This document shows, in pieces, positions 3,747 to 51,612 of a stretch of 64,000 bases of DNA (its first letter is position 1; every line of letters begins with the position of its first letter). The position numbers and the translations under genes are program-made. The notes beneath the pieces were generated by a model, which was given only the letters and a program-made list of their open reading frames with translations, had not been told where the DNA came from and ran no database searches. Location: the NCBI RefSeq assembly GCF_001955715.1, contig NZ_CP019239.1, forward strand, positions 1,240,001 through 1,304,000, given 5' to 3'. Origin of the DNA: Rhodoferax saidenbachensis (lineage in GTDB: Bacteria > Pseudomonadota > Gammaproteobacteria > Burkholderiales > Burkholderiaceae_C).

Positions 3747-4484
3747 TCAGTGCTGAAGAATCTTGCTGAGAAAGTCCTTGGTGCGGGGTTGGCGGTTTTC
3801 AGGGTGGCTGAAGAATTCGTCCTTGCCGCAATCTTCCAGAATATGCCCGCCCACGTCAATGAAGATAACCCGGTTGGCCACTTTGCGGGCGAAGCCCATT
3901 TCGTGGGTGACCACCATCATGGTCATGCCTTCCTTGGCCAGGCCAACCATCACGTCCAGCACTTCGCCCACCATCTCGGGGTCCAGTGCCGACGTGGGTT
4001 CGTCGAACAGCATGACGATGGGATCCATGGACAGTGCGCGGGCAATCGCCACACGCTGCTGCTGCCCACCGGACAACTGACCGGGGAATTTGTCCTTGTG
4101 TGCGGTCAGACCGACGCGGTCCAGCATCTTCAGGCCGCGCACCTTGGCCTCGTCGGCGCTGCGGCCCAGTACCTTGATCTGCGCAATGGTCAGGTTTTCG
4201 GTCACGCTGAGGTGCGGGAACAGCTCGAAGTGCTGGAACACCATGCCCACGCGACTGCGCAGCTTGGGCAGGTCGGTGCTGGGCGCGTTGACGCGGGTGC
4301 CGTCCACGGTGATCTCGCCCTGCTGGATGGGTTCCAGGGCGTTGACAGTCTTGATGAGGGTGGATTTGCCGGAACCCGACGGCCCGCACACCACCACCAC
4401 ATCTCCCTTTTTGATACTTACCGAGCAGTCGGTGAGCACCTGCACCGGGCCATACCACTTGGACACGTTCTTCATTTCAATCAT
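3747..4484 (-). CDS. gltL: Glutamate/aspartate ABC transporter ATP-binding protein
   Basis: This 245-aa ABC ATPase of the polar amino-acid family has Walker [10 protein letters not shown], the signature [15 protein letters not shown], Walker [15 protein letters not shown] and the switch histidine in [10 protein letters not shown] picked the ATG at 4484 because GGAG lies seven bases upstream. Two in-frame alternatives, at 4502 and at the fourth codon, lack that support. It powers the GltJK permease pair encoded just upstream. A 126-bp gap to gltK contains a family-type intergenic repeat. Confidence 0.9.
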
Positions 4485-27969: not shown

Positions 27970-28752
27970 ATGTCCTATATGCAGATTCATATAAGACGTT
28001 GGACCCTGATCGGCATGTCGCTGGTGGCGGTGTTGTGCGCTGCATCGTGGGCGCACGCAGCGACCACCACGGTACGCATTGGTATTGGCGAGTACCCGCC
28101 CTTCAAGGTGGAGTCGGAGCTGGGTGGTGGTGCGTTGACCGAGATCGTGGTGGAGTCTTTCAAGGCCAAAAATATCACCGCCAGTGTGGATTGGGTGCCC
28201 AACAACCGTGCCATTGCGGGTGTGATGGCCGGATATTTTGACGGCAGTTTTGGTTGGGCGCACAGCCCGGAGCGCGATGAAGCGCTGCTGTTTTCCAGCA
28301 AACCCATCTACACCTACCGCATGGTGTTTGTGCAGCGCGCGGGCGAGCAGCGGGACTGGAATTCGCTGGCTGATCTGGCCGGCATGCGCATCGGCATTAC
28401 GCGCGGTAACTTCTACTCCCAGCCCTTTGCTGACCTCAAGGCCCAGGGCGTTTTGACCACCGATGAAGCCTCGGACGACACCAACAGCCTGCAAAAGCTG
28501 CTGCGCAAACGCATTGACCTGTTTCCGCTGGAATATTCGGTGGCGCGTTACCTGATGGCCAGCAAACTCGATGCGGGCGAAGGCGCCCAACTGACCGTGC
28601 AAGACAAACCGTTCTGGACCGTTCCCATCCACTTTGTGGTGTCCAAAAAAGTGCCCAATGCGCAGGAACTGATAGACGCGTTTGATGCAGGTTACCGTGA
28701 GCTGCAGCGCACCAAGCGCATCGACGTGCTGGAGCGCAAGTTGCGCCGCTAG
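27970..28752 (+). CDS. Periplasmic solute-binding protein, SBP_bac_3 type
   Basis: This 260-aa protein has a signal peptide ending near AHA-A (about residue 33) and one bilobed family-3 domain: RIGIGEYPPFKVES, then LAGMRIGITRGNFYSQPF. No permease or ATPase genes are nearby, so it could be an orphan binding protein, a sensor-associated protein, or a partner of a transporter encoded elsewhere. The signal region has two further Met codons, so the start may be at 27979. The dispersed repeat copy D follows the stop. Confidence 0.75.
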   Translation: MSYMQIHIRRWTLIGMSLVAVLCAASWAHAATTTVRIGIGEYPPFKVESELGGGALTEIVVESFKAKNITASVDWVPNNRAIAGVMAGYFDGSFGWAHSPERDEALLFSSKPIYTYRMVFVQRAGEQRDWNSLADLAGMRIGITRGNFYSQPFADLKAQGVLTTDEASDDTNSLQKLLRKRIDLFPLEYSVARYLMASKLDAGEGAQLTVQDKPFWTVPIHFVVSKKVPNAQELIDAFDAGYRELQRTKRIDVLERKLRR

Positions 28753-47201: not shown

Positions 47202-48782
47202 ATGCTCGACGACACACTCAAAGCCCAACTCGCTGCCTACCTGGAACGCGTGACGCTGCCTATCGAGATCGTGGCGTCCCTCGGTGACGACGACAACTCC
47301 GTGCAGATGCGCGAGTTGCTGCAAACCATCCAGACGGCGCGCGCCGACAAGATCACCGTGGCCTATGACGGCCAGGACGCACGCAAGCCTTCGTTCACGC
47401 TCAAGCGCGCTGGCACTGCCACCAGCCTGCGTTTTGCCGGCTTGCCGCTGGGCCATGAATTCACCTCGCTGGTGCTGGCCTTGCTGTGGAGCGGCGGCCA
47501 TCCGCCCAAGGTGGAGCAGGATGTGATTGATCAGATCAAAGCTTTGTCTCCTGTTGATGGCGGAGACTTCAACTTTGAGGTCTACATGAGCCTCACCTGC
47601 CACAACTGCCCCGACGTGGTGCAGGCGCTAAGCCTGATGGCGGTCTTGAACCCCAAAGTGAAAACCACCGTGATCGAAGGCGGCGCGTTCCAGGATGAAG
47701 TCAACGCCCGTGAAATCATGGCCGTGCCCAGCGTTTACCTCAATGGCGCGCTGTTCGGCAATGGCCGCATGCTGGTCGAAGAAATCGTGGCCAAGCTCGA
47801 CACTGGCGCGGCCGACAAGGACGCCGCCAAGCTCAATGCCAAGGATCCGTTTGACGTGTTGATCGTCGGCGGCGGTCCCGCCGGTGCGGCGGCTGCCGTC
47901 TACGCCGCACGCAAGGGCATCCGCGTGGGTGTGGCTGCAGAGCGTTTTGGTGGCCAGGTGAATGACACCATGTCTATCGAAAACTATATCTCGGTGCAAG
48001 AGACGGACGGCCCCAAGTTTGCTGCCGCACTGGAGGCGCAAACCCGCTCCTACGGCGTGGACATCATGAACCTGCAACGCGCCGACAAGATCATCCCGGC
48101 CTCAGAGCCCGGCGGCTTGGCCGAAGTGGTGCTCGCCAACGGTGGCAGCCTCAAGGCGAAGACCATCATCCTCTCCACCGGCGCGCGTTGGCGCAATGTC
48201 AACGTACCCGGCGAACAGGAGTACAAGAACAAAGGCGTGGCCTACTGCCCGCATTGCGATGGCCCGCTGTTCAAGGGCAAAGATGTGGCTGTGATCGGTG
48301 GCGGCAACTCCGGTGTGGAAGCGGCCATTGATTTGGCCGGCCTGGTGCGCCACGTGACCGTGTTTGAGTTCATGCCCGAACTCAAGGCCGACGCCGTGCT
48401 GGTGAAAAAACTGCACAGCTTGCCCAACGTCACCGTGCACACCAACACGCAGACCACCGAGATCACCGGTGCGGACGGCAAGGTCAACGGCATCAAGTAC
48501 AAGAACCGCGAGACGGGCACAGAGTCCCTGCTGCCGCTGGAAGGCGTGTTTGTACAGATTGGTCTGGTGCCCAACACGGAGTGGCTGAAGGGCACCGTGG
48601 ACCTGAGCAAGTTCGGCGAGATCGAAGTCGACGCCAAGGGCCACACCAATGTGCCGGGTGTGTTCGCTGCGGGCGATTGCACCACCGTGCCGTTCAAGCA
48701 GATCGTGATTGCGGCGGGGGATGGGTCCAAGGCGGCGCTGAGTGCGTTTGACCATTTGATTCGCTCGCCTATCGCGGCATAG
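47202..48782 (+). CDS. ahpF: Alkyl hydroperoxide reductase flavoprotein subunit
   Basis: This 526-aa FAD/NAD(P)H enzyme re-reduces AhpC. The N-terminal tandem thioredoxin-fold domain has the active CxxC in [10 protein letters not shown] (about residue 130). The thioredoxin-reductase-like half has [14 protein letters not shown] and the redox pair [11 protein letters not shown] (about residue 350), then [15 protein letters not shown]. Length and motifs are complete. AAGGAATT lies before the ATG. A terminator follows at 48897. Confidence 0.94.
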
Positions 48783-48789
48783 TCTTCGT

Positions 48790-48896
48790 CCCGTTCGGGC
48801 GGAGCACCTTCCGTTCGGGTTGAACAATCCCCGTTCAGGCCGCCCCACCCGCCCGTACGGGCTGAATACTCCCACCCGTTCGGGCTGAGCCTGTCG
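48790..48896 (+). repeat. Array of five degenerate CCGTTCGGGC units
   Basis: Units CCCGTTCGGGC, CCGTTCGGGT, CCGTTCAGGC, CCCGTACGGGC and CCCGTTCGGGC recur at roughly 20-24-bp spacing after ahpF. The last continues as TGAGCCTGTCGAAG. Several units are self-complementary. A related block in the other orientation lies at about 51613. Confidence 0.7.
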
Positions 48897-48932
48897 AAGC
48901 CTTTGAGTTCTTTTGAATTCAAAGGCTTTTTT
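48897..48932 (+). terminator. Rho-independent terminator of ahpF
   Basis: AAGCCTTTGA and TTCAAAGGCTT pair across a short AT-rich loop, followed by TTTTTTC. Confidence 0.88.
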
Positions 48933-49272
48933 CTTTGCACCCGCAGCAGCCCCGGGGTAAGCCCCTCCGCGAATGTCCTCCGCCCTGCGGGCTCCCCCTT
49001 TATTTCGCTGCGGGACTCACCCCGCGTCTGCTGCTCCATGTTTGGGCACAGAGTCGCTACTTTCAGTTTGCAAAATCACCCAAACGGGGGATGCCCAAAG
49101 CACAGTAATCGGGTCAGAATCACCTCGTGGCTAAGTCAAGCTACATCGGTCACAGTGCGGGGTTTGTCGCTATTTTTAATAGAGCAAACTATTCAATAGA
49201 GGTAAGGGGAAAGGTCGCTTCATATGGTTAGTCTCGCCACGTTATCTCGCAGTACCTTGCGGTATAAATTAC
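48933..49272. other. Gene-free stretch before the cassette pair
   Basis: I see no convincing gene in these 340 bp. TTTGGGCA (about 49045) and its inverse TGCCCAAA (about 49092) form an inverted repeat. The second half is noticeably lower in GC than the surroundings. No integrase or attI could be recognised. Confidence 0.5.
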
Positions 49273-49273
49273 G

Positions 49274-49639
49274 TTAGCCATCATGAAACGACCGCGTCTA
49301 GTTCGAGCCATGGGAGCTTTGGGTGTTGTGCTTTCCGTCATCGCAGGAGCCGTCGCGCTCGTCATGACACTTGGCTTTTCGTGCCACTACTTCCCGCGAA
49401 ATTCGCTCCAGAGCATGTATCGGGACCTCGGCGTCGTTTGGATGGCGTCGCTGTACTCGGTCGCCGTTCTGGTTTCCGGTTCAGTTCTACCTTGGCGTCC
49501 TGCCCGCAATCCGAAGGTCGGCGGATCGGATGGCTAACTTGTCGGTCGACACGGACACGTTGCGGCAAGGGGCCGCACGGCGCCGTTGGAAATCGTGCAC
49601 CGCGCGGCCCCTTGCCGCAACGCGCCGGTCACCTTCACG
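49274..49639 (+). mobile_element. Integron gene cassette 1
   Basis: This 366-bp unit is bounded by core sites G-TTAGCC (49273) and G-TTATGT (49639). The R'' box of its attC, GGCTAAC (49532), is the exact inverse of the leading GTTAGCC. This is the rule for a cassette that was once a circle. It contains the 84-aa ORF, whose stop lies in the R'' box. No integrase gene is in the window, so it would be a cassette cluster lacking integrase (CALIN) or the far end of an array. Confidence 0.8.
49283..49537 (+). CDS. Cassette-encoded small membrane protein
   Basis: This 84-aa protein has two hydrophobic helices: LGVVLSVIAGAVALVMTLGF near the N-terminus and VVWMASLYSVAVLVSGSVLP later, with a basic start (MKRPRLVRAMG). 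I recognise no family, as is usual for cassette ORFs. The stop TAA lies in the R'' box (GGCTAAC) of the attC site, and the start is 10 bp after the cassette junction. There is no clear ribosome site, also common in cassettes. Confidence 0.65.
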   Translation: MKRPRLVRAMGALGVVLSVIAGAVALVMTLGFSCHYFPRNSLQSMYRDLGVVWMASLYSVAVLVSGSVLPWRPARNPKVGGSDG

Positions 49640-49645
49640 TTATGT
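49532..49645 (+). other. attC recombination site 1
   Basis: This 114-bp site has R'' GGCTAAC, a 5-base spacer, L'' GGTCGAC, then an 18-bp perfect inverted repeat (GTTGCGGCAAGGGGCCGC at 49559, inverse at 49604). Next come L' (reading GGTGACC on the other strand), 5 bases, and R' GTTATGT. L'' has one extra base relative to L' (GGT-C-GAC against GGT-GAC), the extrahelical base that sets strand choice in attC sites. No T-run, so it is not a terminator. Confidence 0.82.
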
Positions 49646-50567
49646 TCCCGTTCCACTGAGGTTTTAAAAATGTTGTTCCGCCCGCCGCGTGCTTTGATTT
49701 CAAGGCTTGAAGCCGCTCTCCTTTTATGCATTTCGCTCTGCGCTAGCCATGTAGTGCACGCACAGGCACCGGCCGAGGCAGGCCCACCCAAATCGATCTG
49801 GCTGGTAAAGCAGCTTTCTTGCAATGGCTTTGTGGCGCACGAGATGGCCCGTAGTCCTGACGCCGCCGAAATTGGACGCACTGGCATCGTGAAGATTCCG
49901 AACCTGCAGATGGAATTCATTGTTCCGAGTATTCCGGAGTTGGCGGTGAGCTCGGTCAAGCTGGCTTTTGATGACCGTGGGCGGAAGGTCGTGGATCACT
50001 ACGTGCTTCTCTCTCGGAATGACTTGGATGATCCAGTGGCGGCGGTGATGGTGACCGAACTTCCTTCTTCGGTTGACACACCTCAAAAGGCATTGGGAGC
50101 GGCGGTAGCTGGTGAACGTGACAACCTGCGGGGCACGTCCGCTCAACCGACGCTTGAGCGTATTAGTACTTCTTGGGGTGAAGGCTTGGATATCTTCGTA
50201 CCGAACCGCATTGGTTCGCCCTGCTTCCCGGCAGCGCGTTTCAAATTGACCGCTGATTCGGAAACGAAGCCTACCATTAGCTTGAGCCGATTCGTCACTC
50301 TGCCAGGGCGACTGATTCAGTTTGCTCTTATCCTACCTGTCACGCCGGGAACACCGCTTGAGGCGCAAAAGGCGAATGCACGCCGGATAATGGAAATCTA
50401 TGCAGCAGGACTGAGAGCGCGGTAGGTGCTCTACTAGGCTAGGCTTGATACCTCAGATGAGACATAACAGGTCGTTCGACGCGGATACGCAGCGCCATCG
50501 CGCTGATCAACGATGACGCTAAAGCATTCTTATCTACACGCGCCCAGACCAAACCAGATCAGAATGG
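49640..50567 (+). mobile_element. Integron gene cassette 2 (3' end less certain)
   Basis: This cassette starts with TTATGT directly after attC 1. ACATAAC at 50462 is the exact inverse of the leading GTTATGT and marks its R'' box. A GTTAGGC core lies at 50567. It carries the 251-aa ORF. The right arm of its attC does not pair well with the left, so the 3' boundary may be rearranged. Confidence 0.65.
49670..50425 (+). CDS. Cassette-encoded secreted protein of unknown function
   Basis: This 251-aa protein has a signal peptide (LEAALLLCISLCASHVVHAQ, cleavage near residue 32). The mature domain contains SCNGFVAHEMARSPDAAEIG and a later stretch GTPLEAQKANARRIMEIYAA. No known family was recognised. 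It lies 31 bp after the attC 1 core, with its stop 36 bp before the R'' box of site 2. The start at 49670 is chosen because the open frame upstream passes through attC 1. Confidence 0.65.
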   Translation: MLFRPPRALISRLEAALLLCISLCASHVVHAQAPAEAGPPKSIWLVKQLSCNGFVAHEMARSPDAAEIGRTGIVKIPNLQMEFIVPSIPELAVSSVKLAFDDRGRKVVDHYVLLSRNDLDDPVAAVMVTELPSSVDTPQKALGAAVAGERDNLRGTSAQPTLERISTSWGEGLDIFVPNRIGSPCFPAARFKLTADSETKPTISLSRFVTLPGRLIQFALILPVTPGTPLEAQKANARRIMEIYAAGLRAR

Positions 50568-50573
50568 TTAGGC
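50462..50573 (+). other. Putative partial attC site 2
   Basis: ACATAAC, AGGTC, GTTCGACGCGG form a plausible R''-spacer-L'' arm. CAGCGC/GCGCTG (loop CATC) makes a central hairpin. GTTAGGC at 50567 fits the GTTRRRY core. The expected L' complement of GTTCGAC is not seen before GTTAGGC, so the site may be degenerate or a hybrid. Confidence 0.5.
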
Positions 50574-50600
50574 GTTCTTCGATGTGACGAAATTTAGATA

Positions 50601-50659
50601 AAAAATGCCTGTAGCCCTCGTAGGTATTGTGCAACCAGCTATGAATTACATAGCAATCG
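50601..50659 (+). repeat. Dispersed ~60-bp repeat, copy F
   Basis: AAAAATGCCTGTAGCCCTCG, then TAGGTATTGTGCAACCAGCT, then ATGAATTACATAGCA. It lies immediately after the cassette region and ends 7 bp before the NUDIX stop codon. Confidence 0.8.
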
Positions 50660-50665
50660 AAGCCT

Positions 50666-51520
50666 CTAAGACCACAAACGCTCCAACCCACCCTCCGGCA
50701 AAAACCGCTTGTTGCGGATATACAGCCGCGTAGGGCCGGGCAGGGCGCGTTGGTGCACCGAGTGCTGCGGGTCGCCGGGGTAGCAAAGAAAAACTTCGCC
50801 GTTGTCCGTGTAGTTCTCCGGGCAGATACAAGGCGGCATCTGTTGCCGTGCGGCATGCAACACATCTGCAGCATTGTCAAAACGTGCCAGGTGCGCCAGG
50901 CTCATGATTTGCGGCGGGGCCATTTCGATCTCGCCGCGGTCGTAGCGTTGCAAGGCTTCCTTGGGTGTGAGCCACACGCTGGCGGTGGTTTCAAAGTTGT
51001 CGTGGCTGGCGACTTGGTTTGCAGGGGCCAGGGCGAGGAAGAAGCGGGTGTCGAAGCGCTTCTTGCTCAGCGCCGCCATGCGCGGTGTGACCCAGCGGCT
51101 CCAGGGCACCAGTTGGCTGGCTTGCAGTTGGGTTTCGGGGCTGGCCAGCCAGGCTTGCCAGTCGCCTGACGTGGCTCCGCAGGGGCGGCTGTTGCCTTGG
51201 GCCAGCAGCACGCCAGCTTCTTCAAACATTTCGCGCAGCGCCGCCACAAACAGACCAGCGGCGACGCTGCCTTCCAGTTCCGGTTCGCCCAGATGCTGCA
51301 CCAATGTGCCCAAGGGGGTGTCCAGCGCGGCCAGCGCGGTGGGTGACTGGTCGTGGGCGTCGAGCTTGCCGCCGGGGAATACATAGGCTTCACCAAAGGT
51401 GTCGGACAGGCCACTGCGTTTCATCAGAAATACTTCAAGCCCTGAAGCGCCATCGCGCAGCAGGACAACGGTGGCGGCGTCGCGGGGTTGGCCGTCGGCG
51501 GGTTGCAGGGTGGCTTGCAT
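50666..51520 (-). CDS. NUDIX hydrolase, acyl-CoA diphosphatase-like (NUDT19 type)
   Basis: This 284-aa protein has a NUDIX core in two parts: YVFPGGKLDAHDQ, then after an insertion AALREMFEEAGVLLA (about residues 87-101). The split, long insertion and C-terminal extension CICPENY..LPGPTRLYIRN are like mammalian NUDT19/RP2p, which hydrolyse CoA esters. The start at 51520 (MQATLQPAD) is used. It is divergent from a hydroxyacyl-CoA-dehydrogenase-like gene, so a CoA-ester link is plausible but inferred. Confidence 0.78.
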   Translation of the reverse strand: MQATLQPADGQPRDAATVVLLRDGASGLEVFLMKRSGLSDTFGEAYVFPGGKLDAHDQSPTALAALDTPLGTLVQHLGEPELEGSVAAGLFVAALREMFEEAGVLLAQGNSRPCGATSGDWQAWLASPETQLQASQLVPWSRWVTPRMAALSKKRFDTRFFLALAPANQVASHDNFETTASVWLTPKEALQRYDRGEIEMAPPQIMSLAHLARFDNAADVLHAARQQMPPCICPENYTDNGEVFLCYPGDPQHSVHQRALPGPTRLYIRNKRFLPEGGLERLWS

Positions 51521-51612
51521 GGGGGGTCTTTTCTGCTTTGCTTTTTGGTGAGCGATTGCTTGAATTAAAGTACGTCCAGCGGGCAAGGGCTATACGCACA
51601 AGCCCCTATGGC

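Follow-up and report, generated by a model that had tools for sequence, protein, structure and literature searches.

A probable remnant of a chromosomal integron, with two gene cassettes and no integrase, downstream of ahpF in Rhodoferax saidenbachensis

Integrase-free cassettes and the locus beside ahpF

In the accessible part of the IntegronFinder 2.0 paper, a cluster of attC sites lacking an integron-integrase is called a CALIN, and CALINs are proposed to be degraded integrons (PMC9024848). The same text sets the default CALIN threshold at two attC sites and states that single-attC cases can be true (PMC9024848). The available sections of a study on Xanthomonas describe an integron at ilvD with an inherited place, repeated loss of intI, cassettes left behind and attC clusters elsewhere in the genome (PMC12444791). 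Loss of intI and intI pseudogenes are frequent according to the excerpted text of another report (PMC2426708). No paper on an integron at ahpF was found in the open-licence literature.

The window of this study is the whole stretch of R. saidenbachensis DNA that was analysed, 64,000 nucleotides long. Within it, the region from 49255 to about 50505 is very probably the remnant of a sedentary chromosomal integron that has lost its intI, at a place which is often beside ahpF in the genus. Two cassettes lie there between ahpF and a NUDIX-domain gene (Table 1). Decay of this kind, in which integrase loss leaves a remnant behind, is known from other bacteria.

Like a CALIN, the locus has attC-bearing cassettes and no intI nearby. 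It differs from the CALIN of the accessible text in that it keeps one complete attC plus the left arm of another, and an attI-like site. Because only one attC is complete, the locus falls short of the default CALIN definition and below the default threshold of IntegronFinder 2.0. An earlier note on this DNA had expected the cassettes to be invisible to standard annotation. As far as the available sections allow the comparison, the ilvD integron shares with our locus the single chromosomal place, the loss of intI, the retained cassettes and the attC matches elsewhere; the differences are that the anchor here is ahpF, that the genus belongs to Comamonadaceae, and that intI adjoins this anchor in only 10 of 22 assessable genomes. 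Single cassettes of the attG type, in the accessible parts of two papers (PMC12901181, PMC12444791), lie outside any integron, as do the attC matches found elsewhere in this genome and the ORF2 relatives in Limnohabitans parvus and Comamonadaceae bacterium OS-4, whereas the junction in the window resembles attI and not a random target. Two integrons of the genus, in genomes G306 and G319, have the same flanks and attC arms of a similar type, and G306 is identical to the window over 18 nt around the core, but both keep intI, dus and other cassettes.

Table 1. Features of the locus between ahpF and the NUDIX-domain gene (positions in the window)
Feature	Position	Strand	Evidence
ahpF, left flank	47202..48782	+	NCBIfam TIGR03140 AhpF, 762.6 bits; synteny
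Terminator-like hairpin 3' of ahpF	48896..48929	+	weak: 1 found vs shuffle mean 1.9
attI-like site, retained, ends in core GTTA	49255..49276	+	attI model, 26.0 bits
Leading core of cassette 1, GTTAGCC	49273..49279	+	exact inverse of R'' at 49532
ORF1, cassette 1, 84 aa, two hydrophobic stretches	49283..49537	+	no relative found
attC1 of cassette 1, complete R''-L''-stem-L'-R'	49532..49645	+	34.3 bits; fold z -8.95
Terminal stem of attC1, 19-bp perfect arms 49558-49576 and 49604-49622	49558..49622	none	
Junction core GTTATGT	49639..49645	+	attC1 R' and leading core of cassette 2
ORF2, cassette 2, 251 aa, signal-like start	49670..50425	+	relatives 88, 84, 82%; dN/dS 0.10-0.27
attC2 left arm (R''-L'') without right arm	50462..50505	+	likeness to G319 attC; 14.5 bits
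NUDIX-domain gene, right flank	50666..51586	-	PF00293, 31.8 bits, cut-off 21.1; syntenic in genus

In our layout the gap between ahpF (47202-48782) and ORF1 is 473 bp. Several short GTTCGGGC-type repeats were seen by eye at 48790-48905, between ahpF and the terminator-like hairpin. A promoter Pc for the cassettes was sought, and the scan, which covered one promoter type, gave no sigma-70-like site in 48780-50680.

The ORF1 product is predicted to be a membrane-like protein, with hydrophobic stretches beginning near residues 12 and 51. No relatives of ORF1 were found, including in viral contigs and plasmids, and the search of 103 genus genomes showed it to be absent from the other 102. Around its core and start codon, 49271-49288 is identical over 18 nt to positions 3837-3854 of locus L096 (G306). 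The G306 gene with this leader is a different cassette gene of 144 aa, and the leader is common to both. Relatives of ORF2 were absent from viral contigs and plasmids. Neither ORF had a Pfam or NCBIfam match above the curated cut-off, or any match in PHROGs. ORF2 had one weak PADLOC match (E 0.019), and the search of solved structures gave a best E of 0.079. The AlphaFold model of ORF2, made from 4 sequences, had a mean pLDDT of 38.6 and was too poor for a structure search. On our own reading the ORF2 N-terminus may be a signal-like segment. The dN/dS of ORF2 was 0.10-0.27 in six pairs, which speaks for selection on the protein.

One complete attC, one attC arm and an attI-like site

The earlier note had pointed out that each cassette begins with a core exactly inverse to its own R'', and this was confirmed for both: GTTAGCC (49273) is the exact inverse of GGCTAAC (49532-49538), and GTTATGT (49639) of ACATAAC (50462-50468). 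It had also held that two such 7/7 matches are hard to get by chance. This argument is weaker alone than claimed. Among the 83 GTTA cores on both strands of the window, three distinct pairs have the exact inverse 150-1200 nt downstream; two are the cassette pairs and the third, at 28547, is presumably due to chance. Exact inverse cores alone are therefore not decisive.

The whole attC architecture is rarer. attC1, 114 bp long between ORF1 and ORF2, has the described anatomy: R'' GGCTAAC (49532-49538), a 5-nt spacer TTGTC, L'', a perfect stem, L', a 5-nt spacer TTCAC and R' GTTATGT (49639-49645). The stem is perfect as the earlier note had said, but measures 19 bp and not 18 bp; unpaired bases exist in L'' as predicted, but the fold contains three single ones instead of one. 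When the bottom strand of 49532-49645 was folded, the L arms paired, leaving these three L'' bases single, at -49.9 kcal/mol versus a shuffle mean of -25.5 (z = -8.95), and none of 200 shuffles folded as well. In a scan of the 64 kb for the architecture, which allowed one mismatch per R box and required complementary arms, 49532-49645 was the sole site, with a score of 11.2, barely above the threshold of 11; the mirror match on the opposite strand is the same site. This single site in 64 kb is why we regard the whole architecture as rarer than inverse cores alone. A first arm-alignment scanner had missed the window site, had given 10 matches (5 sites, each on both strands) in 59.4 kb of background, and was replaced. 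The Rfam search gave no attC family and three sub-threshold matches to microRNA hairpins.

Covariance models of attC were built from the cassette sides of 20 integrase loci in other genera of the same family, many of which contain attC arrays. The first model, R1, was trained on 37 attCs of 57-63 nt. It missed attC1 (no match at E ≤ 10; a partial match of 8.8 bits in another run) being intolerant of the long terminal stem, and R2 took its place. Searching the 20 integrase loci with R1 gave 152 matches at E ≤ 0.1, and the 139 at E ≤ 0.0025 were used to train R2; the 13 weaker ones, several of which were the opposite strand of stronger ones, were omitted. The training rows of R2 were 33-126 nt long, some of them partial, and R2 copes with long terminal stems. 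It matched attC1 at 34.3 bits over model positions 1-59 of 59, with E-values of 2.7e-8 (2.1 kb, filters off), 2.2e-6 (169 kb) and 5.5e-5 (genome). Cassette 1 thus consists of one ORF with a complete attC and its own core inverse to R''.

With default filters, the sole further window match of R2 at E ≤ 5 was attC2 (14.5 bits, E 0.66). The earlier note had placed an R' core of this second attC at 50567-50573 and the end of the cassette pair at 50573; we found no support for it, and only the left arm, from 50462 to about 50505, is recognisable. Its fold does not stand out (z = -1.86), with 10 of 200 shuffles doing as well. G319 has a complete attC whose left arm is 86% identical, over 43 nt, to the stretch 50463-50505, and no right arm comes after this stretch in the window. 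The OS-4 locus (L015) has the same attC2 left arm, likewise without a recognisable right arm after it. Cassette 2 keeps the left attC arm only, and so lacks the complete attC that a cassette has besides its ORF.

Upstream of the first cassette beside intI, sites of the genus have a common pattern ending in GTTA. A weighted attI model was built from 15 such intI-adjacent sites in other genomes of the genus; G590 (like G580) and G314 (131 nt, no site seen) were omitted, and the training set was kept free of L013, L015 and the window. Under this model the core at 49273 scored 26.0 bits and was first of the 83 GTTA sites, followed by the R' of attC1 with 13.3, in a test that is partly unblinded, because the expression locating the sites was written after inspection of the window, and with a short model. 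Without the four core columns, 49273 ranked 1 of 127,956 positions, by the modest margin of 18.0 versus 15.9 for the next. The best of 134 attC right arms reached 16.0 bits. Some training sites fit poorly (G599 and G633 9.3 bits, G306 and G584 13.8 bits); for three attI types of the training set the fit, at 9.3-13.8 bits, does not exceed part of the background. By its sequence, the first junction resembles an attI joined to cassette 1, and we count a putative site before the first cassette as present.

When 48900-49300 was aligned to one attI stretch and to the intI leaders from 11 genomes, the similarity was weak, and the best score, to G306, was discarded as being due to the common cassette leader. 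With the core excluded, a likeness to the intI leader of G332 appeared in the 36-nt stretch 49156-49191 (p 0.004 for this one among 10 leaders compared); it was not used. Attention may be drawn to attI-like stretches before the ORF2 cassette at L013 458-482 (24.7 bits) and L015 5953-5977 (15.5 bits, which is not above the best attC arms), where intI was undetected.

Integrase, the ahpF place and movement of the second cassette

The earlier note's reading of integron cassettes without an integrase was upheld. No intI was found in the 4.26-Mb single-contig genome, and a complete integron with an intI gene is thus not present in it. The best TIGR02249 matches had 81.2 and 64.8 bits against a cut-off of 265, and none occurred at 1e-40. 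These two were rejected as intI, as NCBIfam ranks the genes as XerD (over its cut-off) and XerC (322.9, cut-off 335.15). Neither an intI relic nor a reading-frame trace was found between ahpF and the attI-like site.

In the genus, intI was detected at E ≤ 1e-40 in 23 of 103 genomes, 21 of them above the TIGR02249 cut-off. One of the 23, G331, was not assessable, as its contig ends after 123 bases. Of the 22 others, 10 have ahpF on the 3' side of intI: the two genes are direct neighbours in 8, and dus separates them in 2. The other 12 have no ahpF in the 3.7-4 kb fetched beside intI, so the ahpF place is not universal and the genus has more than one integron place. Loci with intI away from ahpF are L164/L171 (G583), L163/L173 (G599), L181 (G308) and nine others.

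The window locus is syntenic with intI-bearing relatives. From ahpF to the NUDIX gene, G306 has intI and one attC, and G319 combines intI with two attCs, a third match there being weak (17.0 bits). G300, which is strain OS-4, shows an intermediate state: intI is absent at E ≤ 1e-40, two attCs are present, and the attI stretch is almost the same as in G319. G333 and G328 have neither intI nor attC. All five compared relatives have dus between the integron stretch and the NUDIX gene. The window locus lacks it, and the best-matching dus in R. saidenbachensis, 64% identical, lies elsewhere in the genome. A 215-aa protein encoded between ahpF and dus is nearly identical in L097 (G333), L099 (G319) and L100 (G300), with attC sites around it or none; by our own reading it resembles the dihydrofolate-reductase/RibD type.

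ORF2 has relatives in a Rhodoferax MAG (L013, genome G314; 88%), in Limnohabitans parvus (L014; 84%) and in OS-4 (L015; 82%). It was found in three of the 103 genus genomes, R. saidenbachensis included, and the other two carry it among different genes; among 300 genomes of the order it was found in the R. saidenbachensis genome only. Its neighbour in L. parvus is moaC. In OS-4 the ORF2 cassette stands alone between trpA-like and accD-like (acetyl-CoA carboxylase beta-type) genes. Other genes of the window locus were absent from the first 4 kb of the L013 contig and from 8 kb around L015. The identity of L013 to the window rises from 44% (49600-49638) to 90% (49639-49669) at the core and falls from 73% (50463-50492) to 25% (50493-50520) inside attC. 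The same edges were seen in L015 (33 to 71% at the core, 93 to 36% inside attC) and in L. parvus (31 to 61%, 73 to 36%), where the leading core is not recognisable. Core and R'' agree with the window at 7/7 in L015 and 6/7 in L013, and L013 has a complete attC behind ORF2 (31.3 bits). Since the relatives lie at other loci, with homology beginning near the core and ending inside attC, these comparisons indicate that ORF2 is a mobile cassette, moving between loci with boundaries at the core.

The dS of ORF2 to G314 is 0.22, versus 0.87 (ahpF), 0.62 (ahpC) and 1.01 (tctA) for chromosomal genes, and its dS to Limnohabitans, another genus, is 0.39. To G300 it is 1.00, versus 0.80, 0.52 and 0.93 for chromosomal genes; as this is not below the chromosomal values, the G300 pair gives no sign of recent transfer.

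R2 found nine matches at E ≤ 0.003 at seven places of the R. saidenbachensis genome, the window site included. Those outside the window lie near 809, 957.5, 1238.8, 2339.5, 2634-2635 and 2869 kb (L124-L128, L130-L132, L134), with pairs near 957.5 and 2634-2635 kb and another match 1.1 kb left of the window. Small ORFs and a suitable leading core accompany some of them; for the match at 957817, the leading core is exact and lies 262 nt upstream, with an ORF of 81 aa in the interval. All genome-wide counts are lower bounds, with 150 of 3377 candidates scored here and 46 per genome in the genus survey, and at E ≤ 0.001 this genome gave at least 5 matches in the survey and at least 8 in the single-genome search. 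At the same E-value, at least 61 of the 103 genus genomes, many of them incomplete assemblies, have an attC match; among these are 21 of the 23 with intI and 40 of the 80 without it. In the genus it is common for attC sites to occur without intI.

Origin of the locus and its meaning

In our preferred explanation, an integron integrase was once encoded between ahpF and attI. IntI would have captured circular cassettes by recombination at the core GTT, between attI and the bottom strand of attC in its folded form. Two captures would have left attI, cassette 1 with its complete attC1, and then cassette 2. Later intI would have been lost, and also the right arm of attC2, perhaps by a deletion that removed dus too. 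The past activity and this order of the losses are what we infer; the att sites, the mobility of the ORF2 cassette, the absence of intI and the synteny with relatives that carry intI are seen in the sequence itself. Given an integrase in trans, cassette 1 should stay excisable, and cassette 2 should be frozen. This reading draws on the model match and fold of attC1, the first rank under the attI model, intI beside ahpF in 10 of 22 genomes, the G300 intermediate, the mobility of ORF2, the attC2 left arm matching a complete attC of G319, and the lack of intI in the genome. Against it stand the missing trace of intI, the 12 of 22 genomes with intI not near ahpF, the weaknesses of the attI model, the failure of R1 to see attC1, and the dS of 1.00 between the ORF2 genes of the window and OS-4.

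A distant integrase could instead have inserted both cassettes at a secondary attG-type site downstream of ahpF, with intI never present here in the lineage. Insertion at attG sites is an activity described in the accessible parts of two papers (PMC12901181, PMC12444791), and this explanation would suit the attC matches at seven genome places without intI, the lone ORF2 cassette of OS-4 and the locus free of any intI relic. We consider it improbable, given the attI-like stretch before cassette 1 and the intI carried at the same chromosomal place in 10 genus genomes. It is much less probable still that the cell contains an intI which escaped detection, perhaps carried by a plasmid that the assembly lacks, making the locus a live part of an integron working in trans. 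In favour of this, the search covered the one-contig record alone; against it, this contig is rated 100% complete, and the TIGR02249 matches are far below the cut-off, the two best in XerD- and XerC-type genes.

We give the least credit of all to the idea that an ordinary hairpin lies between two inherited genes and that its core-like letters arose by chance. Exact inverse cores do occur once more in the window, and a hairpin alone would fold as well. However, an independent attC model accommodates the arms, spacers and cores, the ORF2 relatives at other loci have the same boundaries, and in none of the compared relatives is either ORF inherited at this place, which already contradicts this explanation. 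Consistently, the two ORFs were not seen here without core sites in any of the 103 genus genomes, an outcome which the earlier note had named as the sign of an ordinary inherited locus.

The remnant reading places R. saidenbachensis in a decay series at one place of the genus: loci that still have intI and attC, then one that keeps attI and two attCs but lacks intI, then attI followed by one and a half attCs, and finally loci where nothing was found. The ORF2 cassette has reached another genus. A remnant that has just one attC lies under the default threshold of a common finder, in the accessible text describing it, and such loci are probably undercounted. It is possible, though we hold it to be rather unlikely, that the genus hosts an undescribed ahpF-anchored integron lineage which repeatedly loses its integrase while attI and attC cassettes stay and spread. 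If this were true, the R. saidenbachensis genome, with attC matches at seven places, would be an integrase-free distributed reservoir of cassettes, still able to give and take them once an integrase arrives in trans.
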